Part shown: positions 1,442 through 63,921 of the stretch, one piece after another | Layout of the letters: each line of letters starts with the position of its first letter | How positions within the stretch are numbered: position 1 is the stretch's first letter | NCBI RefSeq assembly: GCF_001640025.1 | Contig: NC_031671.1 | Span: forward strand, 1,240,001-1,304,000 | Source of the DNA: Sugiyamaella lignohabitans | Lineage: Eukaryota > Ascomycota > Dipodascomycetes > Dipodascales > Trichomonascaceae | Length of the DNA stretch: 64,000 nt | Direction: 5' to 3' | Translations under genes and position numbers: made by a program | Notes under the pieces: model-generated | Seen by the model: only the letters and a program-made list of their open reading frames with translations | What the model was told of the DNA's origin: nothing | Databases searched by the model: none

Positions 1442-3376
1442 TGTGTTTGAGTAAAGAACTGTTATCTGTCTGATCTCGATTTGTATTGCCAGTTCTAAAT
1501 ATCGCGATAAGGGCAAGGTTTTCAGGAGAGAGGAGGATAAAAGCTGAACCGAATGGGTATAACTCTTTCCGATCATGATTAATCCTTTAGCCAAACACGC
1601 CAGACTATAATAGAGAACTACTATAGCAAGTGTGTTTACCGTTTGCGAATATCTGGTACTGAATCTTGCTGGAGCTGTGAACATATTAGTATCAAATAGA
1701 GCAATGATCGACCGAGGAGACAGTTTTAATGCAGGGTCTGACGATTAATTTATTAATAGGTGAGATATAAATATCGTACGTCTGATGGATGTTTTTTACA
1801 TAACTTCGTATTAAAAGTTGCAGTGGAAATTGGCTAGCAGCCCCCTAGCGGGCCCAAACAAAGACTAACCTGCTCTGTACTAAGCCCCCACCGGCCTAAG
1901 TTGATTTTCAGACCGGAAAATCTCCCGGAGCCACCAGAGCGTTTAAAGTTGGAGCTCTACCTCCGGCGGCTGGGGCTCCGCCCCAGACCCCGTGGCTCCT
2001 CTCGCTGCGCTCGAGTCGTTGTATGGGGAGAAGACCAGTTTAAGTTTGTTTTCTGTGCTAAGAAGTTCTGAACTTCCAAAAGACAAATCTCGTGAAGCTC
2101 AGAGCAGGTCTATTACCGCAGTTGAGTTCTCTCGCTTTCACATAAGCACCCGATTCTCGTCTCTCTGTCTTCCCCAAAATGTAATATCGCTTCCTTGCTT
2201 GTTACTGTCTTTAATCCACCTGCCTACTTTACCTGAGTTTGTCTGTTCCTAATAATATCGCCTAAGTATCCTACTTGCTCCATAAATTACTCCACTAGCT
2301 ATCAAATCTATCAGGGCCTTGGCGCCTATGCTACAGTCTCAATGTTTCTATTATCCTGTAACCTATGAGTCTTAACACTGAAAAAGGTTCATAGACAATA
2401 GGGTGCGTACCACCTCGAAGGTCTTACTTTCTCTCTCAAAATCATATATAAAGAAATCCTCAAGCTGATCAATGCCTTCCAGAATAATACGTATAATAAA
2501 AATAAAAATATTAATATTAGGTACAAGAGACAATACAGGAGACAATAATAGTAAAGTAGTAGGTTGTCAAGCTCAATCAATCAAGTGTGCGGTTACCACT
2601 AGCCAGTCTAGCTTCTGTTCGTAATTAAATGTCTGCCAGCTCCGTGAGAGGCGAGGAAACTTTCCGTCAATACCAGGAATCCCGTTAGAACAGAATCAAC
2701 TAGCCATTGATTTGATTTGTCGAGCTCTGAATAGTAGAACTGGATCCCAGAGTCCATGTCATAGTAAGGAGGAGGTACTATTAAAAAAAAAATGGCCAGG
2801 TGGGTAACTAGAGAAGAACCACCTAAGGCGCCAAGTCTTTGAATGCTCATCGTCCGTCCATGGAAATTGTGAGCCTTAAAATCCAAGTCCAAAATGTCGC
2901 TAAGGAAGCGCCTCTTTGGAAGGATTCAAGAATGTCCAGGAGTAGACTGGCAAGGAGCCAGCTCTACCGTAGTCGAACGGTCTAAATCGTCGTCTGCTCG
3001 CGGTGTGCGAGGCGACTGATGAAGTGAACAACAAGGGACGATGAGCAAATTGTCAGACTTAGGACCTGTGAGCCAATGAATGATAGCAGATATCAGTCGG
3101 GACTCGGGATGCCGCCGACAGTAGATCGCTAATCCGAAAGGAAATCATGATGATAACCAATCCAATAGTACCAGATGTGAAACCATGACAAGAAAGCCTC
3201 TGAAGATCACTCTGGAATTCATACTGTCGACTATCAAACATAAAGATAGTCACCATGAACTAATAGTCATAGCTAATACTGGTCCCTCGAGGAGGAGGAG
3301 AGAGCAACAGACAAGGCAATAAAAGCCTCGAGTCATGCTAGACCGACCAGATAACCGCACATCATGAAAGAAGAAC
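1442..3376. other. 1.9-kb stretch without a recognisable gene
   Basis: Lies between the dehydratase start and the PIP-kinase stop. It holds one copy of the GC element (1960-2018). Short open frames at 2389-2892 and 3059-3256 have no recognisable domain. No tRNA or other RNA gene recognised. Confidence 0.45.
1960..2018 (+). repeat. GC-rich two-hairpin element, copy 1
   Basis: Starts CCTCCGGCGG, hairpin A with loop TCC, tail of the CTCGCTGCGCTCGAGTCG type. Isolated copy in intergenic DNA. Confidence 0.9.
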
Positions 3377-5305
3377 TTAACAGCGAGTAGACACTGATCT
3401 TCCAGGCCCGGGGACCACAGCAGATTGTACGAAATTGAGGAATCTCGCTCCATACTTCGAAGGGTGAACAACGTCGATAGCAGATCTGCCAAATATCAGT
3501 CCTTTGACAGTGGTTTCCGCTCTCTTGCGCCAACTAAAGGGGCAGAGGGTATCAATCATACCAATAACAGGTTGTTGTTCACAAGTACGAGTGTCACTCT
3601 GAAGTCCTACCAATAATGAATAATCCATGATGTTGTGTCGTTTCAAAAAATTGACATCCTCTGAAACTTGAACCAATAACATTTCTCGGTCCTCTCGACT
3701 CATGGAGATAGTCTCGCGTTTGTCAGTCCAGTCAAGATCCTTGAACACTACACGACCACGATTGTCTTTTCTAGGTCCAGCACGTCGGTCATGGCTCGAT
3801 CCCTTGAGGTCGTAGATCAATTGAGTCTCCTTCTGAAGCAAATTCTTCATAATGATAAAGTGAGTCTTCTTTCCATCAGCAACAAGGGTGTAGTTTCCAA
3901 GATAGAAAGGAAGCTGAGTATTGGGGTGGGCCTTAATATGATTGTAGTAGTCGGCCAAAAATTCCGCATTAGCAATGACGTTATGCTCTTTGCGTTTGAT
4001 GGTCTTTATAATGTACTTTCCATCAGGAGTAAACAAGAAATCGGATCCAGATTTACCAGGAGATTTAGTCTTGGTCAAGTCAGACTGCAAAACAAACGAG
4101 TTCAAAAACTGATGGTAATCAATTCCACAAAGGGTGCGGATGTTCTGATAGACCATAGGCGAATGGGCCTTAATAATGGCACCTCCATCAAGTCTGTATT
4201 TCTTGTTCTCCATAGTGAGGGTCTCCTGGCTACTAAGCGAAGTATCATAGGTAGCTGCTTGAACTCCATTAAACATAAGAGTGGATTTTGTAATAGGGGC
4301 AGCGTGACCTGTAAGAGAAGTCAGCTTTGCCTTGGCTCTTGTCAACAACAATGGTGTCTTGGACTTGTCGACTTTTTCAACCTGAATGACCAAATCGTCA
4401 GAGGAAGTGTGAGAAATGGACTTAGATAGTGCCAATGGAGCTGTCTTGGGAAGCTCCGACTCTGGGTCAGCTTGAAGGCCACCAGAAACAATTAATTGTG
4501 GCAAATCCTTGAACAAATTTGCAACGGCAATAATCTCAGTAACAAGGCTGTCAATAGAACAACTACCCTCGATGATAGGGGCAGGAGCATCAGAAGTAGT
4601 GCCAAGGGTTTGTTCATCCACCTTGGCAGGAGTGATTTCCTCAGATTCAGCCAAATCGCTGACAGTGGTCTCCAAAGGCGACTCAACCAATGTTACATCG
4701 CCATGAGACTCAATAGAAGCGTCACTCTCATCAACTTCAATAGGGCAATCAGATAATGCCCAGGAGGCAGCAGGGGCAGTCCAGGTAGCCTCAGTGTCTT
4801 CCTCGGACCAGGTAGATTCAATTTGGCGGGTGGTAAAGGCAGTCTCGTCCCCAGCCTCAAAAGACCACTCAGAACAATTGTCATCATCATTGTCAACGGG
4901 AGCAGAGTAGGTGTCGCTCGACTGTTCACAATAAGGTTTTTCAGAAACAATATCGATGGGTTTCCAGATAGTGGGTTCATTGAGGGTCTCATCAGATCCA
5001 ACCGAGACACCAGAGTCGTCGGAGGAACAAGCAAGGATCAAAACCTTGTGATAAGCAAAAGCAGAACGTCTGGCAGGACGACGGTTCTCTTGTTGTGCAC
5101 AGGCACCGTACTTGGGCACAGAGATTCCACGGTTGATGTCACTCAAAACAGGACGACGAATGACCTTGCGGTCAGGGCCCTGAGCAAATGGAGTATCACC
5201 TAACTTTGTTAGCAGGCGTTGAACCAATTGAGCAGCAACCACTTCATACTACTTACCTCCATTAGATAGATGATAATCACCGTTGGTAAAGATTGAGGTA
5301 CCCAT
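3377..5305 (-). CDS. Phosphatidylinositol phosphate kinase (PIPK domain), two exons
   Basis: Lipid kinase of the PIPK family, which phosphorylates phosphatidylinositol phosphates to control actin, traffic and membrane identity. Exon 1 is 5305-5257 (MGTSIFTNGDYHLSNG), exon 2 is 5199-3377. The 57-nt intron has a GTAAGT donor, TGCTAAC branch motif and TTAG acceptor, giving 623 aa. The first half is long, acidic and low in complexity. The kinase domain covers about residues 340-600: SPGKSGSDF (nucleotide loop), YIIKTIKRKEH, YDLKGSSHDRR, KDLDW, IMDYSLLVG (catalytic block) and a C-terminal VIGMIDTL...HPSKYGARFLNF. The short kinase domain and acidic N-terminus do not closely match MSS4 or FAB1, so substrate specificity (4-, 5- or 3-OH) is open. 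The longer open frame into 5242 begins inside the intron. Confidence 0.85.
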
Positions 5306-5903: not shown

Positions 5904-5955
5904 TGCCTCCGGCGGCTGGGGCTCTGCCCCAGACCCCGTAGCTCGCTTCGCTCGT
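5904..5955 (+). repeat. GC-rich two-hairpin element, copy 2
   Basis: Hairpin A loop TCT; tail GCTCGCTTCGCTCGTTACG. Confidence 0.88.
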
Positions 5956-6283
5956 TACGTCGGGTGGCCAGCTACGAATTTTGGCAGAGCTGTTGGTAGG
6001 ACTGCAGCTCGTAGCACCCAGATTGTCTTGTCAGGGGAAAGGTACTTCGCTGAACTCAAAGGTTTTGCGTCAAAACTTATATTATTTAAGAGTTTAAAAC
6101 CCCTAGGAAGTGATTATACTTCATAGCAGTTTGGATCAACTTATCATCTTATTTGGGCATGAGAAATTGAGTGAATAGCAAGAAAAGCGACTACATTGCC
6201 AAAAACATGACACACTCCAGCTACCAACAAACCATACCCACGTCAAGCCCTTGAATTCAGACTACGAGGTTCACAACCGAACA

Positions 6284-6341
6284 ACTCGAGCGAAGCGAGA
6301 GGAGCCATGGGGTCTGGGGCAAAGCCCCAGCCGCCGGAGGC
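6284..6341 (-). repeat. GC-rich two-hairpin element, copy 3
   Basis: Full-length reverse copy; hairpin A loop is TTT on its own strand (AAA as printed), flanked by an intact 7-bp stem. Confidence 0.9.
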
Positions 6342-6973
6342 TTTCTGACCCCGAGAATTCTACCCCTCCTAGCCCCTGTCACAGCATCTGTCGGTCGACT
6401 GACCCGCCATAATACAGAGAAGTGTAATATAGACGAGTGGAAGGTAGTTTGGGGATGTTGGATGGGGGTTGAGGCACGCAGTTTGCACCCATTGGATCTG
6501 TAAGCAAGTATCAAGAGCTGCTTAAAATTAACCAGTATTTTGGTATTCAGTGAATAAAATGTAGGTTAACGTATCAGTTGAGTCAATGACTCTAGAAAGC
6601 GTGGTTTGGGAATAGACTCAATATATCTCGGGCAATTCAAGGATGGTCTGAGAGGCCGGTGCATATATCCAACGATCTTCTCCCAGTCGCTCTTCTCGAG
6701 CCATTGTGGTGAATATTTGGGGAACACTTTGGAGAATATTTGGGTAATTTTTGCGAAAGAACAAGCTTTTTGGTTTCTGTTATTTCAGCAGCACTTTCGT
6801 ATTAACAGAGTATAGCAAGGAGGTTTTTTATTCATATATCTATTGTATGCTCATTTCGCCTGAGGAAAAAAGCTCCTACATTGTGCTATATTGTCCTACA
6901 GTGTCATACATTTTCTATGCTAGTATCGCTAAGAGACAATAAACCCACAAAAAGAGGCTCACGGATCCCCCAT

Positions 6974-7026
6974 AGCTCGCGAAGCGAGCACAACCAGGTC
7001 CGGGCGGAGCCCGGCCGCCGGAGGCA
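6974..7026 (-). repeat. GC-rich two-hairpin element, copy 4, with compensatory stem change
   Basis: Tail hairpin GCTCGC-GAA-GCGAGC. In hairpin A both sides are changed: TCCGGGC-GGA-GCCCGG replaces TCTGGGGC-GGA-GCCCCAG, so pairing is kept. Confidence 0.85.
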
Positions 7027-14757: not shown

Positions 14758-16067
14758 TCATGAAAAGAACTTGCTTAGAGCAGCCTTTTCCTTGTTGCGT
14801 CTGTCTTGAGCAGCTTTCTTAGCCTTCGCAATAAGTGCAGTAATAGCAGCATCATCAGGAGCATACTTCAAGGCCTCGTTCAAATCCTTGACAGCACCCT
14901 CTTCATTTTTAAGCAACAATTCACCATTACCACGACGATACAAAGCCTTAGCCTTCTCCTTATCTCCAACTTTGTCCTCTAAAGAGAGAACTTCAGAAGA
15001 AGCCTCAATAGCCTCGCGAGGAAGGTTCTCCTTAAGAGCAGTAAGAGCCACATTCAAGTAAACAGAAATCTTGATATCCGACAAAGTCTTCAAATCCTCC
15101 TCAGACAAGTCATCAGGGAAGTAATCTTTCAAATAGTTGGCGGCCTTAGAATATTTGTTATAAGCTCCCTTGATATCGCCTGATTTGAACAGCTTCGTAC
15201 CGATTTCCTTGATATTCTTGACAGCAGTAAACACTGTTTCAGGTACATTCTCGTCGACTCTACCCTCATCTTTAAGAGAATCCTCATAATCATCACCTGT
15301 ACCATCGTTAAAAGTAGGCAGTTCATCTTCAGGACTCAATTCACCACAGTCAGTAATAACAACATCCTGTACTGGTCTGTCTCCAGAGTCCTTCTTTGTG
15401 TTCTCAACTTTTCTAATAACAGACTTACCAGCAAGCAGTTTTCCGAATACAACATGCTTACCGTCTAAATGAGGGGTGGGAACTGTAGTAACGAAGAATT
15501 GCGATCCGTTGGTGTTAGGACCAGCATTGGCCATACTCAACAAAAATGGCTCGGTGTGCTTAACAGGAAATGCCTCGTCCTCGAACTTCTCGCCATAAAT
15601 TGAAACACCACCAGTACCATTACCGTTCGTGAAATCACCACCCTGAATCATGAAATCCTTAATAACTCTGTGGAAAATCGATCCCTTATAAGAAAGAGCA
15701 ACGCCATTCTCAGTCTTGCCTTTATCTCCAGTACAAAGAGCTCTGAAGTTCTCAGCTGTCTTAGGAACCAGGTCGCTATACTATTTTCCTGTTAGTATAT
15801 GCTCCACAGTCTACGGGCTCTTGCTGCCTCCGGCGGCTGGGGCTTCGCCCCAGACCCCACTGCTCCTCTCGCTTCGCTCGAGTCGGGCGTCGGGGTGCCA
15901 CGACATGGATTGAGATTCGGGAGTGAGATATTGGATCAGGGAGTGACCAGAGCTTTCGATGTGGATTCGGAACTTACCAGTTCAAACACAGATCGGCCAA
16001 TTGGCTTTCCGCCAATGGAGATATCCATGAAGACTCTTGGTCTTACAGTGGCAGCTTCGCTAGTCAT
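14758..16067 (-). CDS. CPR6: Cyclophilin-40 type peptidyl-prolyl isomerase with TPR domain, two exons
   Basis: Hsp90 co-chaperone with prolyl isomerase activity. Exon 1 16067-15978 (30 codons), exon 2 15780-14758; 370 aa, against 371 in budding yeast Cpr6. The 197-nt intron has GTAAGT, TACTAAC and an AATAG acceptor; it joins GRSVFEL to [18 protein letters not shown]. The cyclophilin fold (about residues 8-180) has [24 protein letters not shown] and HVVFG; the C-terminal third has three TPR repeats (from about 215) with the charged helix ending [12 protein letters not shown]. Odd: the intron contains a whole GC-rich element (15825-15885), which makes it one of the longest introns here. Confidence 0.95.
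15825..15885 (+). repeat. GC-rich two-hairpin element, copy 5, inside the CPR6 intron
   Basis: Complete copy (hairpin A loop TTC, CTCGAGTCG tail) lying between the donor at 15977 and acceptor at 15781 of CPR6, in the orientation opposite to the gene. Confidence 0.92.
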
Positions 16068-16413: not shown

Positions 16414-16466
16414 CTGGTCGTTGGTTAGGTGGCCGTCACAACGAGAAACTGGGTCAGATCACCAAA

Positions 16467-16521
16467 AGCTCGCGAAGCGAGCACAACGGGGTCTGGGGCA
16501 GCGCCCCAGCCGCCGGAGGCA
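16467..16521 (-). repeat. GC-rich two-hairpin element, copy 6
   Basis: Tail hairpin GCTCGC-GAA-GCGAGC, hairpin A loop GCG... variant with intact stem (CTGGGGC-AGC-GCCCCAG). Confidence 0.9.
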
Positions 16522-17446: not shown

Positions 17447-18028
17447 CGGTCATTTCCATTCACCTCAAATAAATCAACCATTCCAGATGAGTATTAAAGG
17501 GAACAATACCAATACGCGTTCGAGATCGCCATCAATTAAATCATGCGCACCATTACCCGGACCTCGCTCTCCATTCACCGCTGACCTCTTTTAATTTCTT
17601 AATTTTATCCCCAGTTCACTAAACCTGTCCAGCGGGTTCTTGGGTGAACGGGACATGCCTCCGGCGGCTGGGGCGCTGCCCCAGACCCCGTTGTGCCAGC
17701 TTCGCGGGCGCCAGAGACCGTCGACGCCAGACTCGAGCGCCGCGAGAGGAGCCACGGGGTCTGGGGCGGAGCCCCAGCCGCCGGAGGCATGTCCCCTTCA
17801 CCCCAGAAACCGTTTAGTTTCACCAGAGAAAATGTAGGTAGTCGCGTGACTGGAGATGGAGACTCAGGGGCTACCCCTGAGCTTGCTGTTCTGGTGTAAG
17901 ATCGGCGGGGGGAACCGCAGCAATACGGCTTGGAGATCTGAAAAATTCAGGAATCCCGCTTGTTTAGCTGCTTATAACTCCGAGGAAACCGGCTGGATCC
18001 CGCCTGTTGTGTGTTTTCCGTTTGTAAT
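17447..18028. other. Divergent promoter region, SCM3-like gene and CRD1
   Basis: Contains an inverted pair of GC elements at 17656-17789 between the two start codons; otherwise no feature seen. Confidence 0.5.
17656..17789. repeat. Inverted pair of GC-rich elements, copies 7 (+) and 8 (-)
   Basis: Copy 7 is 17656-17709 (hairpin A loop GCT, short tail around CCAGCTTCGCGGG), copy 8 is 17730-17789 (full CTCGAG tail). The tails face each other across 20 bp. Confidence 0.9.
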
Positions 18029-19092: not shown

Positions 19093-19224
19093 TGCCTCCG
19101 GCGGCTGGGGCGCTGCCCCAGACCCCGTTGTGCTCGCTTCGCGAGCAGCCGACGGGTCATCACGGTCCTAGCAACGAGCGAAGCGAGCCGGGGGGTCTGG
19201 GGCGCAGCCCCAGCCACCGGAGGT
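19093..19224. repeat. Inverted pair of GC-rich elements, copies 9 (+) and 10 (-)
   Basis: Copy 9 is 19093-19147 (tail GCTCGC-TTC-GCGAGC), copy 10 is 19173-19224 (slightly diverged head, CCAGCCACCGGAGGTA). They fill most of the 224-bp gap between the convergent CRD1 and CCT4 stops, so one or both may be transcribed in 3' UTRs. Confidence 0.9.
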
Positions 19225-19269
19225 ATCCTGTCTACCCGAAAGTCACAGTTCAATAAAAATGTATTAATT

Positions 19270-20904: not shown

Positions 20905-21572
20905 TTTTCAATTGTCGGTGTATACTCAGCAACTGGTCTCTTTGATCCCGACTTTCCAAACACACAGAAGAATTGATTCGAACCTTTCACGCTCTGCATC
21001 TACCGCGTCTCGCTCCGGGTAAGCCCCTTCCCACCTCAGGTGCGGCGTGAAATATTCTCATGCAGGGGGGACCCTGACGACCCCGTCACAAACGGGCTCC
21101 TCTCCCCTCCAAACACGCCAAATCCCCTCGCTCCTGGCACCATCCCCACGCCCGACTCGAGCGAAGCGAGAGGAGCAGCGGGGTCTGGGGCGGAGCCCCA
21201 GCCGCCGGAGGCATACCCCCACCGGCCCCGCTGCCTCCGGCGGCTGGGGCTCCGCCCCAGACCCCGCTGCTCCTCTCGCTTCGCTCGAGTCGGGCGTGGG
21301 GATGGTGCCAGGAGCGAGAGGAATGGGTCTGGAAGATTCGAGTTGAGACTCGAAAAGGCGGGAGGGGACAAGTGGAGGGGGCAGCCGCGCGGTGAACCCT
21401 GCAGGACGCTAATTTATATCTGCATCGACGATGTGAGATGGATCTGATCTCATCAATAATCAATAATCAGATCAGGATATCGGGTGAACAGTCAGATTAC
21501 TGTTATACCTGGAAAGAGAGAACTGTTATTTTAAAAGGTTAGAGTCTTGAATAGAGTAGACTCGGAATAGCG
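20905..21572. other. Divergent promoter region of CCT4 and CDC123
   Basis: Dominated by the 192-bp inverted repeat at 21127-21318. A GATTCGAAC string at about 20976 looks like a tRNA T-loop but lacks paired stems. Confidence 0.5.
21127..21318. repeat. Long inverted repeat: two GC elements with 87-nt arms, copies 11 (-) and 12 (+)
   Basis: Left arm 21127-21213 and right arm 21232-21318 are reverse complements over 87 nt, by eye without mismatch, around an 18-bp spacer. The arms include the element plus about 27 further bases (from CTCGCTCCTGGCACC) that are not part of the core repeat. Heads (TGCCTCC) face inward. This could extrude a large cruciform. Confidence 0.95.
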
Positions 21573-22824: not shown

Positions 22825-22886
22825 TGCCTCCGGCGGCTGGGGCTCCGCCCCAGACCCTGGTTGCTCCTCTCGCTGCGCTCGAGTCG
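22825..22886 (+). repeat. GC-rich two-hairpin element, copy 13
   Basis: Begins 53 bp after the CDC123 stop, so probably transcribed in its 3' UTR. Tail CTCGCTGCGCTCGAGTCG. Confidence 0.9.
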
Positions 22887-23073
22887 GCCGTCGGCGTCCC
22901 TGAACTACTGTTCTGTGAGAGTTTAATACTGTGAAATCGAGAGAAACAGAGAAGAGCTTCAACAAAAATCTGAGAGCCCTTTAGTGCACCAGGGGCTCTA
23001 CAGCCCTCAGGTTTCACTCTCGAAACACAACCACCTGATCCACACCAAAACACAGCTGCCCGATCCCCCACGA

Positions 23074-23126
23074 AACGAGCGAAGCGAGCCACGGGGTCTG
23101 GGGCAGAGCCCCAGCCGCCGGAGGCA
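23074..23126 (-). repeat. GC-rich two-hairpin element, copy 14
   Basis: Reverse copy with AACGAGCGAAGCGAGCC tail, about 190 bp from copy 13 and oriented toward it. Confidence 0.9.
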
Positions 23127-23962: not shown

Positions 23963-24626
23963 ACATGTTGTGGCAATCCCGAGATAATCACATCACATCA
24001 CCTATCTGATATGATTTGATATTTTAGCTCCTGCTCACTGACTCTACTCTGGTTCTGAAGTTGTTCTTTTATTAGAAATTTGCATGTTCTTTTCGTTCTT
24101 TTTTTTATTGCTGGTGATTAATACTTTCCACTCGTCAACCGAACTCGTCTCCGCGTCTCTTGTGACGCCATCCTCATTCACCTCAAAACACCACCTCACC
24201 TCAACCCTTGCGCACTACTTTGGCCCCATTTAGTGCTTGTGTATATGGCCCTCTGTTTCTGTTGTTTATATTCTAATGACCAAAATATTTATCTGTGACT
24301 GAAATTTGCGGTAGTGGCCGTGCCTCCGGCGGCTGGGGCGCTGCCCCAGACCCCGTTGTGCCCGCTTCGCGGGGTTGCTGGGAACGTAGACGCCCGACTC
24401 GAGCGGAGCGAGAGGAGCCACGGGGTCTGGGGCAGAGCCCCAGCCGCCGGAGGCATTCTCCCGGTCCCGATAGATCAAACCCCCGTTAGTACGATATTTC
24501 ATGCCGAAGTGAGAGTGTTTGGCGTGTAAGAGGAGAGTATATAGTGATGGAGTGGTGAAGTTAGTGGAATACATAAACCTATAGTTCAGATCAGGGAGCT
24601 TTGAGAGAATTGAGGGTCGTGGAAAG
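23963..24626. other. Intergenic region between TIM17 and the GPATCH1-like gene
   Basis: Pyrimidine-rich TIM17 3' region, then an inverted pair of GC elements at 24321-24455 roughly 170-300 bp upstream of the next start codon. Confidence 0.5.
24321..24455. repeat. Inverted pair of GC-rich elements, copies 15 (+) and 16 (-)
   Basis: Copy 15 is 24321-24374 with tail hairpin CCCGC-TTC-GCGGG; copy 16 is 24396-24455 with CTCGAGCGGAGCGAGAGGAG tail. Tails face inward. Confidence 0.9.
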
Positions 24627-26798: not shown

Positions 26799-26893
26799 CG
26801 AAGTAATGAGTAATGATAATGATTTGTATTTCATATACCACAGCGTAGATTTCGGGTGACAAAGTGACTGGCAAAACCAGACGGTCCTCGCAA

Positions 26894-26949
26894 TCTCCTG
26901 CGAAGCAGGAGCCACGGGGTCTGGGGCGGAGCCCCAGCCGCCGGAGGCA
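26894..26949 (-). repeat. GC-rich two-hairpin element, copy 17
   Basis: Tail hairpin CTCCTGC-GAA-GCAGGAG. Sits in the 188-bp gap between the convergent stops of the GPATCH1-like gene and SWF1. Confidence 0.92.
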
Positions 26950-26986: not shown

Positions 26987-28554
26987 CTATAATGGAGACG
27001 GGAACAGCAGCTCGCGGGCATTGTTGTAGAACCCGTTATCGTATATGTTGTTGATATCTTGGAACCCTTCGACTTTACGGAGAACAAGACCGCGCTCTGA
27101 AACCAGCTGGTTCTCGGACGGTTTGAGGTTTCGGTGATAGGTTCCGTCATTGAGCTTTTGGAGCACGATAGTGGGTTCGTTTCTGGCGTGGCTGAGCGCG
27201 TCCAGAGACTTGTCGGGGTATCCAAAGTAATAAAGACACTCGTCTTCAATGCATTCGTTGATGGCATCCCATTTCATCGACTCATTAGTGGTGGTACCCA
27301 AATAAATAAATTTAATATGCACTGCGAGGAATCCGCCGGCAACAAGAAAAAGCATCCCGCAAAGAAGCATCAGCGAGCCCGCAGTGCGGTTGATGTCATT
27401 ATATGTCATTATGCTCTAGGTCTCGTTAGAAACACACAACTCTCATCTCAAGGAACACAAAGCCATGTCAAACTTACCACCCATGCTGTCCAACCGAGAA
27501 AACCACTTGGCACAATATCTCCACTCGCTATCAGACGGGCCAAATCTCGTGCTAGCACTCCACGTGTAAGATAAAACCCGTATGTGAGCAGCACGACATT
27601 GCTGACCACATAGAAAAAGAACCACCGATAGTTATAGTAACCAACACAGTTATTAATCCACACACAATGATGGTCCATCATGGCAATACAGCCACCACAG
27701 CTTGAGCAGTGTTTACTTCGAGCAGGCTTTTCGAATTTACACGTGGAACATATGTTATCCGACATGAATATAAGATTATCAAATCTGAACTTCTTGAGCA
27801 CTCGGGCATGATTCTCTTTCCTAATAAATCCCGGGTTTGAAAACACCGCCAGCCAGCTGCTCACATACGGCAGACATGACACTGCCGGTATGGCAACGTA
27901 ATGAAACCCGTTCATCGGAATCCGGTAACAAACATCCTTTAAGAAAAAATAAAGGCATACCGTTACTACCACTATGTACCCGGCCTGTACTGTTAGAATT
28001 ATCTGGGTGGCAGGGGACAGCCTCCGGCGGCTGGGGCTCCGCCCCAGACCCCGCTGCTCCTCTCGCTTCGCTCGAGTCGTGCGTCGGGCGGTGGCACAGA
28101 ACTGTAAATTGCTGTCTCTGATGTGAATTTCAGGTACATTGATTGACAGAACTATGAATTGAAGTTTGAGATATGGTTTTGTATCACAGAACCAACGACT
28201 TACTGGTACAATATATCCAATGTGGTGGTAGTGTTTGGTCCAGAGACCAGTGGCCAGTCGTTCGGTCTTTCCCGTGGGATCCAGTGCATGAAGCACCCGT
28301 CTAGGGTTGTCAATAAGCCATTGCCGAGTTCTCGAAAGCCATGTGTCTCTGAATCATGAGTTAGTACCATATTTGTCCCTCTGGTTATTCACGGAAGTAC
28401 GATCACCAACTGCGGTGATGCCACTTAGCATTCCTTCTCAACACCAACTCTTGGCCAATACTTACTGAAGCTGAGGTAGACTGCCAAACAGGCAAATCAC
28501 GAGAAACACGCAAAAGATCGCAATTAGCACAAGGGCTACTTTGAACTTTCCCAT
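26987..28554 (-). CDS. SWF1: DHHC palmitoyltransferase Swf1, four exons
   Basis: Palmitoylates transmembrane proteins such as SNAREs near the membrane, from the ER. Exons: 28554-28466, 28348-28204, 27984-27478, 27415-26987; 389 aa. Introns of 117, 219 and 62 nt all have GTAAGT donors, with TACTAAC or TTCTAAC branch motifs, and phases agree at each join (SLPQL-QDTWLSRT, GYIVP-AGYIVVV, TAWV-SIMTYND). Exon 1 encodes one membrane helix; the zinc-binding DHHC domain is at about residues 155-205 (CSTCKFEKPARSKHCSSC, DHHC 182-185, WINNCVGYYNYR). The TTxNESMKWD motif in exon 4 is specific to this family. Intron 2 carries a complete GC element (28020-28079). Confidence 0.93.
28020..28079 (+). repeat. 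GC-rich two-hairpin element, copy 18, inside SWF1 intron 2
   Basis: Full copy with CTCGAGTCG tail, between the donor at 28203 and the acceptor at 27985. Antisense to the gene. The branch motif lies outside the element, beside the acceptor. Confidence 0.92.
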
Positions 28555-30390
28555 GGACGACTTTGACTTGTGGACCTAGATTCAGATCACATCAGATCAG
28601 CGCCATCTTATCATCGTACGGCAACTCACTGGTGTTGGGCTGGGGTTCCAGAACCAGGAACAACTAATTAGTACCGTCTTATGTTCAACTATCCCTTCTA
28701 ACAACGTTATAAGAAATTCACAACATAAGAAAACAAGAGATGCAAATACGGTCAAGAGGCACTAAAAATAATATTTCATCACAAAATATATATTAACATA
28801 AATTGCCATGTGATATTGCCACTTCTACACCACCGCCAGGGTATTAAATGACCCACTTACAGCCCTGCAAGTAGTGTACTAACTGCATTTGGCGAAAATT
28901 ACCCCTGAGTTCGATATGCAGGTAGCATTTAATTCAATCAAATCGAATATAAAGTGAGCAGCCAAAATAACACAGTACAGAACAAAAGTTGTCTAATATT
29001 TCAACACAGGCGAACAGTTTTTTTTTTATTTACAGACTAAAACAATCTCAGACTGGTATTCATATTACGGGCTTTGCAATTTCTCATGCCATAAAATCCA
29101 GAAATTAACCCAGTCAAAACCTAAGACAAAAACCTCATTTACATTTAGTGTCCTTTGATAACCACTAAGTAGCACCCCTTAGAGACCGTTAACCATTAAA
29201 ATTGGAAAAAGAACAAGTAAGAAGAATCAAGGTGAACCCGACGTAACGACTCGAGCGGAGCGAGAGGAGCCACGGGGTCTGGGGCGGAGCCCCAGCCGGC
29301 GGAGGCAGAACCTCTCTTCCCCGTCACAGGATGCACGTAGCAGAGTGTGCACGAGAAGAGTTTAAGTTAAGGGTGGTACTTAATGTTCCTCAAAACGTGA
29401 TATTGGACAGGCTGCACATAGCTAATACAGAAGTAATATACAGCAGCAGATATGATACATTTTGAGGCAAGGGAAATTTGCTGTTCAGGAGAGAGTACTG
29501 CGACGATCGCGGCAGAGGTTAGTAGAAAGAAGTGAGGAGAAGTGAGGGAAAGTGAGATGTGGTGCAGATGGTGGAGTATTAATTGATGCGGATATGCGGG
29601 CCCCTGGCTGAAAATTGTCATTTCCTCATCCGCACCAATGCATAATAACAGTAGAGGCGCGTTTTTTAACCACCGAATTACCCCTTATTTGACAAGATTG
29701 ACTGCACAGGGTAGTCCGATCAGGTAAAACAGTCTACAAAAACTTCCGATCTAATGTCTAGTGATTAGAACCCTTCAGAAGACGACATTTGTGAGTAGTT
29801 ATCTCCGATATCATAAAAAAGTTACTAGAACCAGTTCCAATTCGCAAATAATCTCTTGGCAAAAGTAATAGACCATCGTGATAAAAATACATCTCAGACA
29901 GACAGTCAGTCGGCCGGCCAAGAACGTTGAACTGCTGAAACGCTGAAACCCAAACCGAGTAACCTTCAGAAGCAGCTCGACACAAACTAGTTGATACGTC
30001 TGGAATACGAAACCCAACATTCTCAACCTTACAAAGACACCAGAATCAGCTTTTCACTCTCGTCTATCCAAGACACGACAGTTCTTCAATTGAAATTAAT
30101 TGACTCAGACATTCTTCAGTTACATCAATTAATTGACAAAAAATAGAAGAAGACATCGCCAATTTCAATTGTCAAAAACAATTACATTTTATTCACTCGT
30201 TAATCCAGTTCCCATTGATTGATTTCCGCGACATCACTGCGAATAAGGTCTGTGCTCGCAACAGTGTCTCACGCTCGATACTACTATAGATCACGCCCAC
30301 TGACATAAACTCATCCAAACCAACGCAAGTAGCACTCAAGGCACGAGCTACGCGACAAAAACGCACACAACTGATACAAAGTAACATACC
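28555..30390. other. 1.8-kb divergent intergenic region
   Basis: Between SWF1 and the unrecognised three-exon gene. AT-rich left part with one GC element at 29247-29307. No gene, tRNA or snRNA recognised. Confidence 0.45.
29247..29307 (-). repeat. GC-rich two-hairpin element, copy 19
   Basis: Full-length; one transversion in the head (CCAGCCGGCGGAGG instead of CCAGCCGCCGGAGG). Confidence 0.9.
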
Positions 30391-31377
30391 ATGGCTCCCG
30401 TGTACCCACCCGTCACGATAGAGAAGCGGATAGCCTCTCTCGAGTACCTGTGCTCACTGTAAGTGTTCAGCTGGGGGTGTAGGTGTGTGCCTCCGGCGGC
30501 TGGGGCTCTGCCCCAGACCCCGTGGCTCCTCTCGCTTCGCTCGAGTCGAGCGTCGGAGTGCCAGTAATCTCCTGCGAAGCAGGAGCAACCAGGGTCTGGG
30601 GCGGAGCCCCAGCCGCCGGAGGCATGTCCCCGGCCAGGAAGTGTCATATGCTAACGAGGGACAAGGAACGCGAAACAACTGTTTCGCGCCAACACGTCGA
30701 GCACGTTTATTGCTAGTAAGGACTTTGAACACAATTTCAAGATGGAGACGCTGACGACGCTGCATTTTTTTTACTTAGGAGGGTCGATTCCGTCTATTAT
30801 CCAGCGCCATGCCGGTTCGCTGACCGATTATTTGAAAGCCCTGCTGGCGCTGTTCAAGGAGTACGAGTCGATAAAAGCCCAGTCGGACCCCACTACGTCG
30901 CGAACAAAGAGTGTGGTGGGTGTTGGAAGGAGGTTGTTTAGAGCTCGGGTCAAGTCTGAGACGTCACTGTCGACTGTTTCATCGTCCACTTCACTGAATG
31001 AGCACCATTTACGGGCAGGACGTAACTCGAGCGGATCTATTCCCTCATCTTTGGCGTTTATTCCTTCACCAACAACCAGTTCAATTCCTGAGTATTCGTA
31101 CCTCAGCGTATGTCACCTACCATTTGTGCCAGACCTGGCTCAAACGTTTCTCTGCCTCTGTGAGACTCTCATCGAAGCCTATAAACACATTGACACGTTA
31201 GTGCCCAATTGGCAGGCAGTGCCTCAGGATGTCCAGGAGCTCGTATCTAAATTAGACGATAAAGTCTATAAGAACGTTGTAGCACCATCGCTCAAGGATA
31301 TCGAGACGCCATTCAGAAACGTCTCATATACTGAATCACCATCATCTAAACTCAGCAGTCTTCTCTCACGAGCCTAG
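30391..31377 (+). CDS. Unrecognised three-exon gene, 238-aa product
   Basis: I do not recognise the family. Exons 30391-30458, 30666-30715 (50 nt) and 30779-31377 fit in phase and give MAPVYPPVTIEKRIASLEYL, then NAKQLFRANTSSTFIA, then RGSIPSIIQRHAGSLTDYL. Intron 1 (207 nt) has GTAAGT and TGCTAAC; intron 2 (63 nt) has GTAAGG and a weak branch site, so its acceptor is less certain. The protein looks cytosolic and helical: an N-terminal segment with coiled-coil-like heptads (about 50-75), a Ser-rich linker, then a conserved-looking VCHLPFVPDLAQTFLCLCET and PQDVQELVSKLDDKVYKNVV. No signal peptide or membrane segment. Intron 1 contains an inverted pair of GC elements. Confidence 0.7.
30488..30624. 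repeat. Inverted pair of GC-rich elements, copies 20 (+) and 21 (-), inside an intron
   Basis: Copy 20 is 30488-30548 (CTCGAGTCG tail), copy 21 is 30568-30624 (CTCCTGC-GAA-GCAGGAG tail). They fill about two thirds of intron 1 of the 30391-31377 gene. Tails face inward but are of two different types, so the pair did not arise by simple recent inverted duplication. Confidence 0.9.
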
Positions 31378-34743: not shown

Positions 34744-34880
34744 ATGCCTCCGGCGGCTGGGGCTCCGCCCCAGACCCCGTAGCTCCTGCTTCGCAGGAGT
34801 TAACTTGACCGTCGCGGAACGACTCGAGCGGAGCGAGAGGAGCAGCGGGGTCTGGGGCGGAGCCCCAGCCGCCGGAGGCA
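34744..34880. repeat. Inverted pair of GC-rich elements, copies 23 (+) and 24 (-)
   Basis: Copy 23 is 34744-34799 (CTCCTGC-TTC-GCAGGAG tail), 42 bp after the TRM1 stop; copy 24 is 34820-34880 (CTCGAGCGGAGCGAGAGGAG tail). Two different tail types face each other. Confidence 0.92.
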
Positions 34881-42030: not shown

Positions 42031-42086
42031 TGCCTCCGGCGGCTGGGGCGTTGCCCCAGACCCCATTGCTCCTGCTTCGCAGGAGT
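42031..42086 (+). repeat. GC-rich two-hairpin element, copy 25
   Basis: Hairpin A loop GTT, tail hairpin CTCCTGC-TTC-GCAGGAG. The only copy within the first 6.5 kb of the gene-free region. Confidence 0.92.
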
Positions 42087-44059
42087 TCTCGTTCCGTTGC
42101 AACATCTGTCGTCCAAAAATTCAAACAAAAAACAACCTTAATAAACAGTCTCTACGTTACTTCTTTGGTATAATCTGGCCAATGTGCCTTCGTAAGCTCA
42201 CGCTGCCAACCTTCTACTCCTTTTATCTGCTGCTTCCGCCTATCAGCTCGGCCAACCAGCTCCATTCGTTACCTATCACCAAACTCTAAAGGGTATTGTT
42301 GAGCCCAAATGATAAATCACTCCTAATCCCCTTTTTCATTTCCCCTCCCTGTTCAACAACTCACCGCTCACCTCCTGCTGGTCTTTCTCCCAACTGCATC
42401 ATCCTGTCCAGGCAGCCATTTTTCCCTGCTTGCTTGCCTGCTAACAGGTGGATCAAGCCAGCTTGCAGTGAAAAAGCAGCCCGTTTTCTAAACTCCCAAC
42501 TGCACAGACCGGCATCTCACCCGACCAACACCACCGCGAAACTCGCACGAAAATGCATCACAGTTGATAGACATAATCCGATGTTTTACCGGCGATCTAT
42601 CAATTAAATGCCGCCTCGAGAAAATGACATCAGAATAAAGGGGTAAAAACAAATTTATAGCGGGGGTCATCGTATCACAACCAAAACATGATCCAGCCGA
42701 GCCCGCCGGCCGAGATCAGACCAATAAGCCGAACAAACATTATTGATCAAATTCATAGATTGGATCCTCAGCTTAAAACAACATGCCACTGTGATTTATA
42801 GTCATGTCATCGCTGCCAGCGGGTATCACTTTCCACCGGGTATTGGATGTAAAGTGTGGAGTATACTTAACAAGAACCGGTTCCGTTAAAAATGGGACCG
42901 ACTAGATAGCACAAGTTCTAATTGTATACTCTAAAGTATAATATTTAGAAATATAATGTGAATAATCCAATAGATCAATACCAATCTGATCTGTCTCTGT
43001 CAAATCAACCAAGGGTAAAATGTATTTCCATCATCACTCTCACAGGGTATAGCTATATATTTCATGATGATCTCTCCAGAGTATTCTCTAAACACTTGAA
43101 CGCTTGTATAACGACTTAGCTCTTTAATAGTCTTCCTCCTAGAAAGTACAATTCTCTGTTCCTTGTGTCATTCCATGTACCATTAATCCTCTGGTTCGGT
43201 TTATGAGTCCCTTATGAGTCCCTCCGATGTATCATGTACCAATGTAATATTCAATCCTTCATATCCCTACAACCTCACAGTCATCATTTCAGTTACTTAC
43301 CATCACAGATGATTTACCAAATGCCATGATATCGTAGATTCGCAATTTTTTTTTTTTCAAGTTGTAATTTTTTTTTTGGGATTTTCTGGTTTGCTGGTCC
43401 TTGGCGGACTTCGGTTTGTTCACTATTAGTCAAATGCTCTGTTTAAAGCGGTGTATACTATTGCAAGTGTGCCAGGGGCTGGTCGCTATCTATCCGGAGT
43501 GTGCCTCACAATTGAGACTCTTCATGAATCAACAAAAACCCATAGAAGAACCACCTTTTTTTACAATGAAATGTCGACTTTGTGATACAAGAAAAAAGTA
43601 CAAGTTTACGAGGCAATTTTAAAATGCAACTCACCTAACACTTACTGACCGCAGCTCACTGTACTCACAGTCTATCTGCACTGCACGTCAACAAACGGTA
43701 GTCCTAATTAAACCTGAAATGACGGCTGCAGCTCTTTCTTGCAACCCAACGCACTCTGCCAGGAGGTACACTAACTAAACTTACTAGGAAAACACGCCGA
43801 TTGACTTGAGATTACTGAATCCGAATCCGCAAGTGCTGCAAAATCGCCTGATGAATCGACTGATATATCCCAACCAGCAATGAAAACTACAGCGTGGCTG
43901 TTGAATTAAGATTACAATTAGCCCTACAATTGCTCCTGCAATTAAACCTGCCGAGCTTGAAAATCACTGCCGTCGAATATTTACTTAGCGGGTCTCACAG
44001 GGGGTGAGTGTTGAACAGGTAGGAGTATCTATTAGTTCGAGATGGAAATAATCGACAAA

Positions 44060-45118: not shown

Positions 45119-45265
45119 ACCGACTCTCGCTTCGCGAGAGGAGCCACGGGGTCTGGGGCAGAGCCCCAGCCGCCGGAGGCAGCGTGGGCACCCGGGATTT
45201 GTGCCTCCGGCGGCTGGGGCTCCGCCCCAGACCCCGTGGCTCCTCTCGCTTCGCGAGAGTCGGTG
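45119..45265. repeat. Inverted pair of GC-rich elements, copies 26 (-) and 27 (+)
   Basis: Copy 26 is 45119-45181, copy 27 is 45202-45265. Both have the perfect tail hairpin CTCTCGC-TTC-GCGAGAG and share the flank CACCGA/TCGGTG, so the whole 147 bp is a near-perfect inverted repeat with a 20-bp centre. Heads face inward, as at 21127-21318. Confidence 0.93.
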
Positions 45266-47123: not shown

Positions 47124-47184
47124 TGCCTCCGGCGGCTGGGGCTCCGCCCCAGATCCCGTGGCTCCTCTCGCTGCGCTCGAGTCG
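47124..47184 (+). repeat. GC-rich two-hairpin element, copy 28
   Basis: Full copy, CTCGCTGCGCTCGAGTCG tail, followed by AAGTGTCGGGGT matching the extended flank of other copies. Confidence 0.9.
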
Positions 47185-47330
47185 AAGTGTCGGGGTCCCT
47201 CTCGGGTTTTGGCAAGTGATAATGGTAATTTATTACATTTGGGATCAGGAGTGTTGAGGACAGTATCAGATTTCGGGGTTGCAAGGTTCTTCAGCATTCC
47301 CTCTTTCAATCTCTGGAGAGAAATTGGTAA

Positions 47331-47385
47331 TCACCTGCGAAGCAGGAGCCACGGGGTCTGGGGCAGAGCCACAGCTACCGGAAGC
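47331..47385 (-). repeat. GC-rich two-hairpin element, copy 29, decayed
   Basis: Several substitutions, including two in hairpin A (CTGGGGC-AGA-GCCACAG) and in the head (CTACCGGAAGCA). The only copy where the hairpin A stem is clearly broken. Confidence 0.8.
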
Positions 47386-47430
47386 ACGTCTCACCCGTAC
47401 ATTGAGAGAGTGCTCGGTTTCCTACCGAAA

Positions 47431-47487
47431 TCTCCTGCGAAGCAGGAGCCACGGGGGTCTGGGGCGGAGCCCCAGCCGCCGGAGGCA
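47431..47487 (-). repeat. GC-rich two-hairpin element, copy 30
   Basis: Intact copy 46 bp from decayed copy 29, same orientation and same CTCCTGC tail type; together a direct pair. Lies 47 bp from the DCAF4-like stop. Confidence 0.9.
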
Positions 47488-55671: not shown

Positions 55672-57313
55672 GGTATTTGTAAATGTTGGTTACAATGGTG
55701 AGGATGCAGATGCAGCTTTAGTAATGGTTCAATAGCTCTTGTGAGTTGATTGGTATGATAAACTATTGATCCCGAAATATTTTGCCAATAAAAATTCAAT
55801 TAATGTTCTGGGATGTGAAATATTCGCCACAGATTTTAATTTTGGCTATTCACAGAGGGTTTGTTGTCAATAATTGCGCAAATCTAGCGCTGGAAATAGG
55901 ATATTCTGAGGCAATACCGCCTCTGTAACCGGTTTTACCTTAATAAAAAATAGGATGTGTTATGAACCAGAACTACCGATAAGATGTTCATTACAAACAC
56001 GTTGAAATAAAAAACAACCAGAAGAAAAAAAAGTAGAAGATTTTTAAAAAAAAATACAGATACTTTTAATATATTCCAGAAGAATTTAAAGGGGTGATGT
56101 AAGTTTATGTGGGTTAGTAATGTAGTGAAATTATATATGATATAATATATATGTATTGTTGTATATGTAGTATTACAGTGTGACCGATCAAGTAATAGAG
56201 AATATATCGCAATAGCGGCAGATTGTATTAATGGGAGCAATCTATCTACTAATGGAACCGTCTGGAAAATATGACTTTTTTATATATTCGGATTAAATAG
56301 GAAAAAATAAAATAAAAACAAGAATACAATAAATATTAAAAGAGAAATGATAAGGGAATAGATTGAGAATTAAATATATCAGAATGGCGGCTATCGCAAA
56401 ACTCACCCGCTGGGGTCCCTTAATGCAGTCATGCAGTCTTAGACCAGTCATTTCTGAGCTGCCCAATCGTGAACATTTTAACTCCCGGGGTTCAAGCGGA
56501 GCCTCAGATCCAGTGGCGTCCATTTCACTATTTTACAATCGAGAAAGAGTCAGGATTCCTTGGATTCCTGGCCATGTGACCATGGCCACCGGAATCCGTT
56601 CCCGACCTGGCAATAGCGCGGCTCCCAGCAGGGGAACGAAGTGAGATGCAACCCTTTAGCTAGAGCACTTGACGTCATCTCCAAGCAAATGGTGATGTGT
56701 CGGCAAGTGAATAATACGATTAGAACCACACAATTTAAAAATAAGAATTGCAGAACCGTCGACTTTATGACCAGATATAAAATTATGACTTTAATAAGCG
56801 AATTTTGCAGGTGAGTCTTGTGGTTATATTTCTATATTCACATCCTGTTTGACTGATATGTAATATATTCATGTTACAGATTGTGTACGAGCTATTAATG
56901 ACGTATAAGTAGATAATGTACTTTTAATTATTTCCATAATCTATGAATAATGCTCGATCTGAAACTCAACTCGGTAATTTGTCATATATCACAGCTCAAT
57001 AGCTCCTCCTGGACAACTCATTAATAACCTATCCGTCTCATCAACCTTAGCGGTCAGGTGTCAAAAATCTCCTGCGAAGCAGGAGCCACGGGGTCTGGGG
57101 CAGCGCCCCAGCCGCCGGAGGCACACCATCTCTCAGCCACCCGACAGCCTCGGTTGCCTATTACTTTAATTATCGTTTATTAAGTACAAGATAACGGACC
57201 GTTTGCCCGTATCGGTTTTCCATTGCATGAGATTAGGCTGTCATCTGCAGGGTCCCTACAGATTTGCGTCGATCAATATTTAAGGTTAGCTCGCAGTGAA
57301 GTGAGGAGGATGG
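55672..57313. other. 1.6-kb AT-rich intergenic region
   Basis: Between the RING-ligase start and FCY1 stop. Very AT-rich at 55.9-56.35 kb. One GC element at 57068-57123. The 56363-56644 frame has no domain. Confidence 0.45.
57068..57123 (-). repeat. GC-rich two-hairpin element, copy 31
   Basis: CTCCTGC-GAA-GCAGGAG tail, hairpin A with intact stem. About 190 bp beyond the FCY1 stop. Confidence 0.92.
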
Positions 57314-61596: not shown

Positions 61597-62376
61597 ATTG
61601 CTCTATAATTTTGTGTTAGCTAAGTTTCTTTCCGCAAATAGAAACTCGCTTGACATTTTATATTATACCACACTTACACCTCACAAACCGTACACTCTTG
61701 TCAATTCACACTAATACAGTTATAACAGAAATCCAAACCGTTTTAAATTGATCGAAACGATTCTTGTATAACCACTATCAGTACTTTGTGGCTTTAGGTA
61801 ACTCTATAGCTCAGCTGCCTCTTTGTATTTGGTCACTTCTATTGTGGGGGCTTGTAGATCTCCGCAGTAGCCGTATAGCGTGAGGTGAGAGGCAAGGTCC
61901 AAGTCGGCCTAAAACGCCTAATCGTGGTGTCGATTATGCACCTCGATGCATGGCCCCACTATGATCTTCATACGGCGCCAACCATAGGGGTAATGTAATC
62001 AGTTGAATTTGGTGATATTATTATCTCGTCTTCCTGTTGTGATGGATGAACTTGTCCATTTGGCCTTTCACACTTTCAATTTGAATACTTGAACTCTAAA
62101 CGGTCAATGTCTTTGTATGACGTAAGTACTGCATATCTATGCAGTATTGACTTTGACCATGTTTCGGATGGTATCTCCGATAAATTCATTTCGGTGACCG
62201 GGACTGCCTCTGGCGGCTGGGGCTCTGCCCCAGACCCCGTGGCTCCTCTCGCTTTGCTCGAGTCGTGCTTCGGGCTCCGAATCAAGCGTCTTGGTTTGCT
62301 CGATTCTGTCAATGAAATATGATATAAATAAACAAAATACTTTTGCTCTATGGGAACACTAAATACAAGATACAGA
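61597..62376. other. Intergenic region AMS1 upstream / JLP1-like downstream
   Basis: AMS1 promoter on the left; GC element at 62205-62265 near the end of the JLP1-like gene. Confidence 0.5.
62205..62265 (+). repeat. GC-rich two-hairpin element, copy 32
   Basis: Two transitions (CCTCTGGCGG head, CTCGCTTTGCTCGAG tail), otherwise full length. About 110 bp beyond the JLP1-like stop. Confidence 0.9.
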
Positions 62377-63492: not shown

Positions 63493-63921
63493 TCTAATTT
63501 GATATATTTACAGCAAGAAAAGAATGACAGTCAATTCCAAGCTGGCAGATGAGCATATTTATACCGCTCAAGCCACAGTTACACCGCCATCTCAGGTGGC
63601 TACGAGTGGTCCGATAACTATTATCACGTTCACTATCTTCAATATTTGTCCATGTCACGTGCGACGATCCCCCACCCCCTGATACTTCCTTACTGGGAGT
63701 CTGCAATTCTGACTTACAGGAAGCTAATAAAAAACACATTTGCAAGTGAAATACAAATAAAATTTTAATTCACATCAAAAAGACACGTCCCGCCCGAAGC
63801 CCGACTCGAGCGAAGCGAGAGGAGCCGTGGAGTCTGGGGCGAAGCCCCAGCCGCCGGAGGCATGAAAACAGACCCGTAGTGATAGATAAATAAGATAAAT
63901 TCTAAATACAAATTATACAGT
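63493..63921. other. Intergenic region at the right end
   Basis: JLP1-like promoter and GC element copy 33; the 63494-63745 frame has no recognisable domain. Confidence 0.5.
63802..63862 (-). repeat. GC-rich two-hairpin element, copy 33
   Basis: Full reverse copy with the extended flank (CCCGACTCGAGCGAAGCG). About 60 bp beyond the stop of the truncated right-end gene. Confidence 0.92.

Follow-up and report, generated by a model that had tools for sequence, protein, structure and literature searches.

A nuclear hairpin element of the yeast Sugiyamaella lignohabitans that resembles bacterial REP doublets and may have moved between domains

We analyzed a 64,000-nucleotide stretch of the nuclear genome of the yeast Sugiyamaella lignohabitans (contig NC_031671.1, positions 1,240,001 to 1,304,000; hereafter the window) and found that GC-rich islands scattered through it are arms of a short palindromic element, of which ∼6,000 arm cores are present genome-wide. 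The commonest unit of this element is a near-palindrome of ∼138 bp, consisting of one arm of type S, a centre, and an inverted arm of type L. The arm core also occurs in some unrelated bacteria, where it forms similar convergent pairs. We interpret the element, with a probability of about one half, as a non-autonomous member of the yeast nuclear genome that resembles doublets of repetitive extragenic palindromic (REP) sequences, that is, bacterial interspersed mosaic elements (BIMEs) or REPINs, and that would be mobile and would have crossed between domains. A stronger version is more tentative, its chances being a little short of even: that one and the same mobile DNA hairpin, a transposase-less, REPIN-like arm of the form TGCCTCCGGCGG-hairpin-ACCCC, lives in bacteria and in a eukaryotic nucleus, has moved between the two domains, has multiplied to ∼6,000 arms, and owes its movement either to machinery that bacterial and yeast cells have in common or to a mover yet to be discovered.

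The window was scanned on both strands for the 12-mer TGCCTCCGGCGG with up to two mismatches, and the result was compared with 100 shuffles. We obtained 33 matches compared with 2.2 expected, and none of the 100 shuffles reached 33. One match (28080, plus strand) was a chance occurrence within the tail of the copy at 28019 and was removed, whereas a degenerate arm that escapes the pattern (47386, minus strand) was added, giving a final list of 33 arms (15 plus, 18 minus). A preliminary description of this DNA had arrived at the identical count. Its account of GC-rich islands agrees with the base composition (73.0% GC in the arms versus 43.9% in the remainder of the window), and the order that it gave (12-mer, hairpin A, ACCCC-like linker, hairpin B) is correct for the window arms and for the sampled arm profile. 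The paired arrangement of the arms was absent from that description. Five convergent pairs of 133–137 bp account for 10 of the 33 arms and two back-to-back palindromes for another 4, whereas 19 belong to neither. The unit length of 55–80 bp proposed earlier holds for a single arm and fails for the commonest full unit of ∼138 bp. The proposal that no copy lies in a coding exon needs a qualification, for the arm at 32177 (minus strand) falls within a 183-residue open reading frame (ORF) that is a candidate gene only; 147 of 167 sampled arms lay outside ORFs of at least 150 residues and 20 lay within such ORFs, which are not confirmed genes. A protein search with 17 candidate read-through peptides of the arm gave no scoring match. 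In Rfam, no window arm reached the gathering score, the best results being microRNA-family matches below their cut-offs over the two back-to-back palindromes.

The genome comprises 15.93 Mb in four contigs (5.93, 4.95, 2.77, and 2.28 Mb), with the window in contig C3. The exact 12-mer TGCCTCCGGCGG was found 5,858 times genome-wide and the same pattern written backwards twice; CTGGGGCNNNGCCCCAGACC gave 6,024 matches and its reversed pattern none. Confinement of the copies to the window is therefore ruled out, and at ∼59 bp each, ∼6,000 arms make up roughly 2% of the genome. Statistics were drawn from a sample of 279,060 bases, namely the window and 25 loci (L numbers); L002, L003, and L008, which overlap others, were left out of it. 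The sample is not random, since L001 and L004–L007 were chosen for holding copies and L010–L013 are a single 40-kb block of high copy density. With a profile of the arm core we identified 183 arms, of which the 179 above 18 bits were kept; the profile misses variants such as the arm at 7026 (minus strand; stem CCGGGC/GCCCGG), and 32 of the arms in the statistics therefore come from the window. At the 30 fixed positions, 124 of the 179 arms have no mismatch. Nearby arms are more alike than distant ones, mostly owing to one dense domain, C1:190–262 kb. Among the 10-kb loci, this domain (L010–L013) has the highest copy counts (12, 21, and 18 pattern matches in L011–L013 compared with 0–16 elsewhere) and the highest GC content, and its dominant linker variant is ACCCTGG, as if one young subfamily had filled it. 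Within it, L012:5170–5390 holds a tandem array of arms with the stem CCGGGC-nnn-GCCCGG at a period of ∼87 bp.

The arm of ∼59 bp has the structure 5'-TGCCTCCGGCGG-[hairpin A CTGGGGC-nnn-GCCCCAG]-ACCCC-[hairpin B]. Its boundary at TGCC is sharp: no letter exceeds 43% at position -1, and positions 0–32 are 94–100% conserved except for the three-base loop. After ACCCC the arms diverge into the hairpin-B types L (CTCTCGC...GCTCGAGTCG), S1 (CTCCTGC-nnn-GCAGGAG), S2 (GCTCGC-nnn-GCGAGC), and S3. A perfect hairpin B (three-base loop, stem of at least 5 bp) is present in 76 of the 179 arms, in eleven combinations of type and stem, and its loop reads TTC in 65 cases and GAA in 4. Most L arms have no perfect stem at this place, and S hairpins vary in sequence yet remain perfect. 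Hairpin-B loops are inverted on like stems (GAA for TTC, GGA for TCC) in the window pair 45181/45202 and at L021:2134, L022:1210, and L015:7576, as if the hairpin had flipped. Among neighboring arms 120–200 bp apart, 44 pairs were convergent and none back-to-back, and four back-to-back pairs occurred at a spacing of 17–21 bp. In total there were 48 convergent pairs closer than 260 bp, 38 of which join an L arm to an S1 or S2 arm, and 83 arms had no partner within that distance. A consensus built from 31 pairs in which an L arm faces an arm of another type measures 138 bp, and its per-position conservation is 95% in the S arm, 71% in the centre, and 95% in the L arm. Two units that were tested fold as DNA nearly end to end (-66 and -72 kcal/mol, z-scores of about -12), compared with a z-score of only -1.2 for one single L arm.

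At the boundaries of the yeast units, an exact target-site duplication of at least 3 bp was found in none of 48 pairs, and boundary identity was not above that of permuted pairs. Exact 2-bp duplications were not enriched (6.2% observed, 6.7% in permuted pairs), and direct repeats at offsets up to 80 bp showed nothing above permutation in 47 pairs. The 14 bp outside the arm are G-rich. When read inward, the outer flanks of a unit's two arms are alike (0.438 versus 0.362 permuted over 8 bp; 1 in 5,000 permutations), a likeness that regional base composition could explain in part. Words complementary to the hairpin foot are overrepresented in the flanks, with GGGGTC occurring 17 times versus 2.4 in letter shuffles. 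Such a bias recalls guide pairing, an idea modeled on IS200/IS605 in which the flank is chosen by complementarity to ACCCC; flanks matched the foot of their own arm no better than those of others (151 of 179 arms), and because of this lack of covariation we keep guide pairing as a lead only. Comparing the sample with itself returned 16 repeated stretches in which no empty site was noticed. The starts of contigs C1 and C4 (L009:29–1117 and L028:27–1037) share ∼1.1 kb at 84% identity, are probably subtelomeric, and contain no element there.

With ORFs of at least 250 residues serving as gene proxies, distances to genes were measured for 63 element loci that lie in gaps of 200 bp or more between such ORFs. 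The sampled elements favor the stretch 25–75 bp after stop codons, which holds 16 of 58 stop-codon distances compared with 3.8 expected under random placement in the same gaps; 17 of the 58 exceed 1 kb. None of 68 start-codon distances was below 100 bp (7.4 expected). With ORFs of at least 150 residues, arm density was 1.79 per kb in convergent gaps, 1.24 in tandem gaps, and 0.94 in divergent gaps, and in tandem gaps 28 arms ran with the gene direction and 29 against it, showing no strand preference. One unit (L013:6602–6741) lies inside a 211-bp intron (GT...TACTAAC...AG) of a protein-kinase gene, presumably casein-kinase-like by resemblance, that is in frame once spliced.

Relatives of the arm were found in prokaryotes. 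A scan of species genomes for the exact 19-mer TGCCTCCGGCGGCTGGGGC gave at least 120 stretches, a number that undercounts the carriers. Among the matches listed, 142 have 40 bases behind the 19-mer, and 112 of these reach CCCCAGACC within 22 bases. By our reading of the listed loci, full arms with the TGCCTCCGGCGG-hairpin-ACCCC core are present in at least 13 bacterial assemblies, mostly of alphaproteobacteria. Among the matches listed, the isolates with full arms are Polymorphobacter multimanifer, Polymorphobacter glacialis, and Solidesulfovibrio aerotolerans; the other carriers listed are ten metagenome-assembled genomes (MAGs) assigned to Sphingomonadales, Sandarakinorhabdus, Acetobacteraceae, Roseococcus, Alphaproteobacteria, or Deltaproteobacteria. 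Within the 120 listed loci, the pattern GCCTCCGGCGGC[TC]GGG marks 223 sites, every one in a distinct context. Convergent neighbors there were less than 200 bp apart in 74 of 83 cases, 56 of them at 113–128 bp, compared with 0 of 20 for other orientations; none of 71 pairs had a 3-bp duplication, and the middles of the pairs are less conserved as judged by eye. In L040–L167, 27 of 65 stop-codon distances were 0–25 bp, and 51 of 133 clusters lay inside ORFs of at least 150 residues, a count based on crude ORF calls that are unreliable in GC-rich DNA. In 297 genomes of the phylum to which Solidesulfovibrio belongs, the exact yeast-type arm was seen a single time, in Solidesulfovibrio itself. Of 398 Pseudomonadota genomes, P. 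multimanifer has 56 copies of the exact 17-mer GCCTCCGGCGGCTGGGG and one other genome has a single copy (two chance matches for the reversed pattern), and within the family of P. multimanifer the 17-mer is present in 2 of 119 genomes, the second carrying it once (one match for the reversed pattern). These counts, which refer to that 17-mer in sampled species genomes, indicate that few genomes carry the bacterial element in abundance, whereas most of the relatives sampled have little or none of it.

Virus-associated contigs also contain the arm. Together with one Solidesulfovibrio site (L256), they gave 109 matches (L160–L256), of which 31 are full arms, some of them with CCGGGG...CCCCGG stems and some with long stems that differ in the interior; the hairpin-B pattern was found 0 times in the viral contigs. 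An arm pair from one such contig (L165) folds like the yeast units, and in another (L167) the arms adjoin genes that we take to be phage structural genes, as recognized from their translations with no search. The yeast query gave three weak partial Streptomyces matches in plasmid records and none in phage records. Seven bacterial or virus-associated loci yielded no arm match in Rfam. The single match was a cyclic di-GMP-I riboswitch (L063:5536–5620) elsewhere in the Solidesulfovibrio locus that holds the yeast-type arm.

The search for a mover covered several transposase families. PF01797, which represents the Y1 transposases of HUH type to which the REP-associated tyrosine transposases (RAYTs) belong, had no match in the yeast, with a control positive in 5 of 14. 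It was also absent from 7 of 8 arm-bearing bacterial genomes, several of which are MAGs and possibly incomplete; the one genome with a Y1 protein, that of Solidesulfovibrio, carries a single yeast-type arm. The mover is probably not a REP-type (Y1) transposase. No Mutator-like element (MULE) was detected in the yeast, with a positive control, and neither hAT nor Helitron RepHel (PF14214) was detected, though their controls gave no match either. Insertion between A and T, as for Helitrons, is not seen: the base at position -1 is C at 0.43, G at 0.30, A at 0.14, and T at 0.13. Pogo/DDE_1 was considered as a parent and set aside: its two matches (L029:235–2634 and L030:1–2574) are large pogo-like proteins, each encoded by a single ORF, that resemble genes domesticated by the host and do not have these repeats as ends. 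Complete units flank the L029 gene, one upstream and one 55 bp past its stop codon (at 3138/3327 and 6035/6172 of the surrounding locus L039); these are of different types and not one bracketing repeat. The 3.5-kb locus of L030 has no unit. Ten wider-spaced convergent pairs occur in L040–L167, and the two inspected (L167 and L071) enclose no recognizable transposase. Thirteen reverse-transcriptase matches were obtained in the yeast; the eight loci examined (L031–L038) contain no arm and so provide no filled and empty pair. Four of them (L035, L036, L037, and L038) are 96.5–99.7% alike over ∼3.5 kb at four places and probably represent a recently active retroelement family.

The preliminary description regarded the element as structured, non-coding, dispersed, and probably mobile. 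Near-identical copies, units made of inverted pairs, and patchy occurrence all support this view, with mobility itself being read from the sequence patterns. The agreement between the yeast and bacterial arms further suggests common descent, which would mean that the element crossed between the domains, in one direction or the other. The spreading form could be a single-stranded hairpin, recognized and pasted near transcription ends by an activity that nicks or joins DNA and acts in trans; insertion might involve no staggered cut and hence leave no duplication, and single arms would be partial copies. A number of observations weigh against this interpretation. Mobility is deduced from one fungal genome and from bacterial sequences, the transposase-family searches of the yeast and the arm-bearing bacteria returned no mover, and no vehicle was found, a bacterial-type query having matched no plasmid or phage record. 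Only the arm core of ∼31 bases is common to yeast and bacteria. The bacterial stem is 8 bp, one pair longer than that of the yeast, in 170 of 185 parsed arms from the listed loci; the outer flank is purine-rich in bacteria and G-rich in yeast; and the inverted flank likeness of the yeast units is absent in bacteria (0.347 versus 0.347). The hairpin CTCCTGC-nnn-GCAGGAG gave 98 strand matches in yeast loci, equal to 49 sites because it is its own complement, and 0 in bacterial loci, and CTCGAGTCG occurred 93 times in yeast loci versus 3 in bacterial loci. Two MAGs supply 80 of the 120 listed bacterial loci, and the hairpin is missing from 30 of the 142 listed 19-mers. These 30 include five Streptomyces loci, Azospirillum, and Nitrospirillum, as chance would produce where genomes are GC-rich. 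Finally, yeast flanks show no covariation with the foot of the arm that they adjoin.

Other explanations account for parts of these data. Host replication or repair errors, such as template switching and ectopic conversion, could multiply hairpins and keep palindromes perfect with no dedicated mover. The exchange of TTC and GAA loops in otherwise like hairpins, the back-to-back palindromes and tandem copies, the S hairpins that change and remain perfect, and the greater likeness of nearby arms, though mainly from one dense domain, speak for this explanation; the outer 12-mer, foot, and paired layout shared by bacteria and yeast suggest instead a sequence-specific recognition, and we consider the explanation unlikely. 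The inverted arms could alternatively be the terminal inverted repeats of a miniature inverted-repeat transposable element (MITE) derived from a DDE cut-and-paste transposon whose autonomous parent was lost or is unrecognized. High copy number, gene proximity, inverted terminal arms, and lack of conserved coding capacity would all suit such an origin, which is nonetheless quite improbable given 48 pairs of nearly identical arms with no target-site duplication, 83 of 179 arms outside close pairs, just two DDE_1 matches with neither bracketed by one inverted repeat, and no MULE (control positive) or hAT (control also without a match) in the yeast. A comparably low probability, if anything a shade lower, attaches to selection for function in mRNA 3' ends (termination, stability, or processing) after an ancient spread. 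This proposal draws on the preferred position after stop codons, the nearly twofold higher density between convergent ORFs than in divergent gaps, the far better conservation of arms than of centre and flanks, and the bacterial units that likewise lie near stop codons; it does not sit well with the stop distances above 1 kb (17 of 58), the unit within an intron and the arms of a tandem array, orientation indifferent to tandem genes (29 versus 28), or patchiness among related bacteria.

Two further proposals concern the source of the element. Yeast and bacterial arms may have arisen independently and come to agree through the same constraint of DNA structure or binding, and the restriction of the likeness to the arm core, with tails and hairpin B differing, speaks for this. 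We judge it very improbable in view of ∼31 shared positions, seven of which are implied by pairing, combined with a similar pair layout, and in view of the rarity of the sequence outside carriers, about that of the reversed control in the sampled genomes. The preliminary description had raised a link to mitochondrial GC clusters, and transfer of such clusters to the nucleus is the faintest of the possibilities considered here. Both are short GC-rich palindromes in AT-richer DNA, and the clusters are described as transposable element (TE)-like (PMC4478555). GC42 is reported with putative AG target nucleotides (PMC4478555), and a 2-bp duplication is not enriched in our pairs. The sequence relatives that we found are bacterial or lie in virus-associated contigs. 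The yeast sequence covered consists of the four large contigs, and within this scope the mitochondrial link has no support beyond analogy.

The window itself contains five full units. Convergent S2 and L arms around a centre form the units at 17656–17789 (134 bp, plus) and 24321–24455 (135 bp, plus), S1 and L arms form those at 30488–30624 (137 bp, minus; DNA fold -66.4 kcal/mol, z -12.1) and 34745–34880 (136 bp, plus; -71.6 kcal/mol, z -12.1), and S2 and S3 arms form that at 19093–19225 (133 bp, plus). The last lies in a convergent intergenic gap, 48 bp past the stop codon ending at 19045 and 45 bp from the one beginning at 19270, and the unit at 34745–34880 is 43 bp past the stop codon ending at 34702. 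The back-to-back L arms at 21155–21290 (21213, minus; 21232, plus) create a large palindrome in which arms and tails are nearly identical, and at 45123–45260 two further back-to-back arms (45181, minus; 45202, plus) differ in the hairpin-B loop, one having GAA where its partner has TTC. Single L arms are located on the plus strand at 1958–2016, 15825–15883, 22825–22883, 28019–28077, 47124–47182, and 62205–62263 and on the minus strand at 6284–6342, 29249–29307, and 63804–63862. Single S1 arms lie at 26891–26949 (minus), 42031–42089 (plus), and 57065–57123 (minus), an S2 arm at 16463–16521 (minus), and S3 arms at 5904–5962 (plus), 23068–23126 (minus), and 32119–32177 (minus), the last being the arm within the 183-residue ORF. 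The arm at 6968–7026 (minus) has the hairpin A variant CCGGGC-TCC-GCCCGG, and a degenerate S1 arm at 47328–47386 (minus) is in tandem with an S1 arm at 47429–47487 (minus), which is 47 bp from the stop codon beginning at 47534. Nine window proteins that were scanned look eukaryotic, e.g., Scm3, a TCP-1/cpn60 chaperonin, a TRM tRNA methyltransferase, and a protein with Pumilio repeats.

To our knowledge, REP-type hairpin repeats have been treated as bacterial matter and mitochondrial GC clusters as organelle matter. We found no published description of the present element by arm sequence or by topic in a search that did not cover the original S. lignohabitans genome paper. If our interpretation is right, structured DNA of very small size would be able to pass from one domain to another and to multiply with no gene of its own, and this yeast, in which the element occupies the 3' side of many genes, offers a system for testing what moves such hairpins. 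MITEs are short, non-autonomous, gene-proximal elements with terminal inverted repeats. The yeast element shares these inverted repeats and differs in having no target-site duplication, no cognate transposase that we could find, and many unpaired arms; the absent duplication (48 and 47 pairs) led us to reject MITE membership. Fungal mitochondrial GC clusters and double-hairpin elements are likewise tiny GC-rich hairpins, thought to be mobile with an unknown mover (PMC4478555), whereas the yeast element is nuclear, is paired over ∼138 bp, lacks a target duplication, and has no sequence link to them that we found. The name REPIN is used for paired REP elements. REP sequences and BIMEs are short extragenic palindromes of high copy number, often in inverted pairs, that were proposed to be non-autonomous mobile elements (PMC2817692, PMC3733652), and CGTC-tagged prokaryotic palindromic repeats are said to lack a dedicated transposase (PMC3733652); in the yeast consensus, CGTC is in the centre and not at the arm end. 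The yeast element resides in a eukaryotic nucleus and has a larger arm with two hairpins. Judged by position frequencies, the palindrome carries no GTAG tag at its 5' end, and RAYT was found neither in the yeast nor in 7 of the 8 arm-bearing bacteria; because it differs in these two defining features, the tag and RAYT, we do not class it as a BIME or REPIN. Its likeness to REP, BIME, and REPIN elements lies in short palindromes that are of high copy number and mostly extragenic and, in yeast and bacteria alike, in inverted pairs with a less conserved middle.

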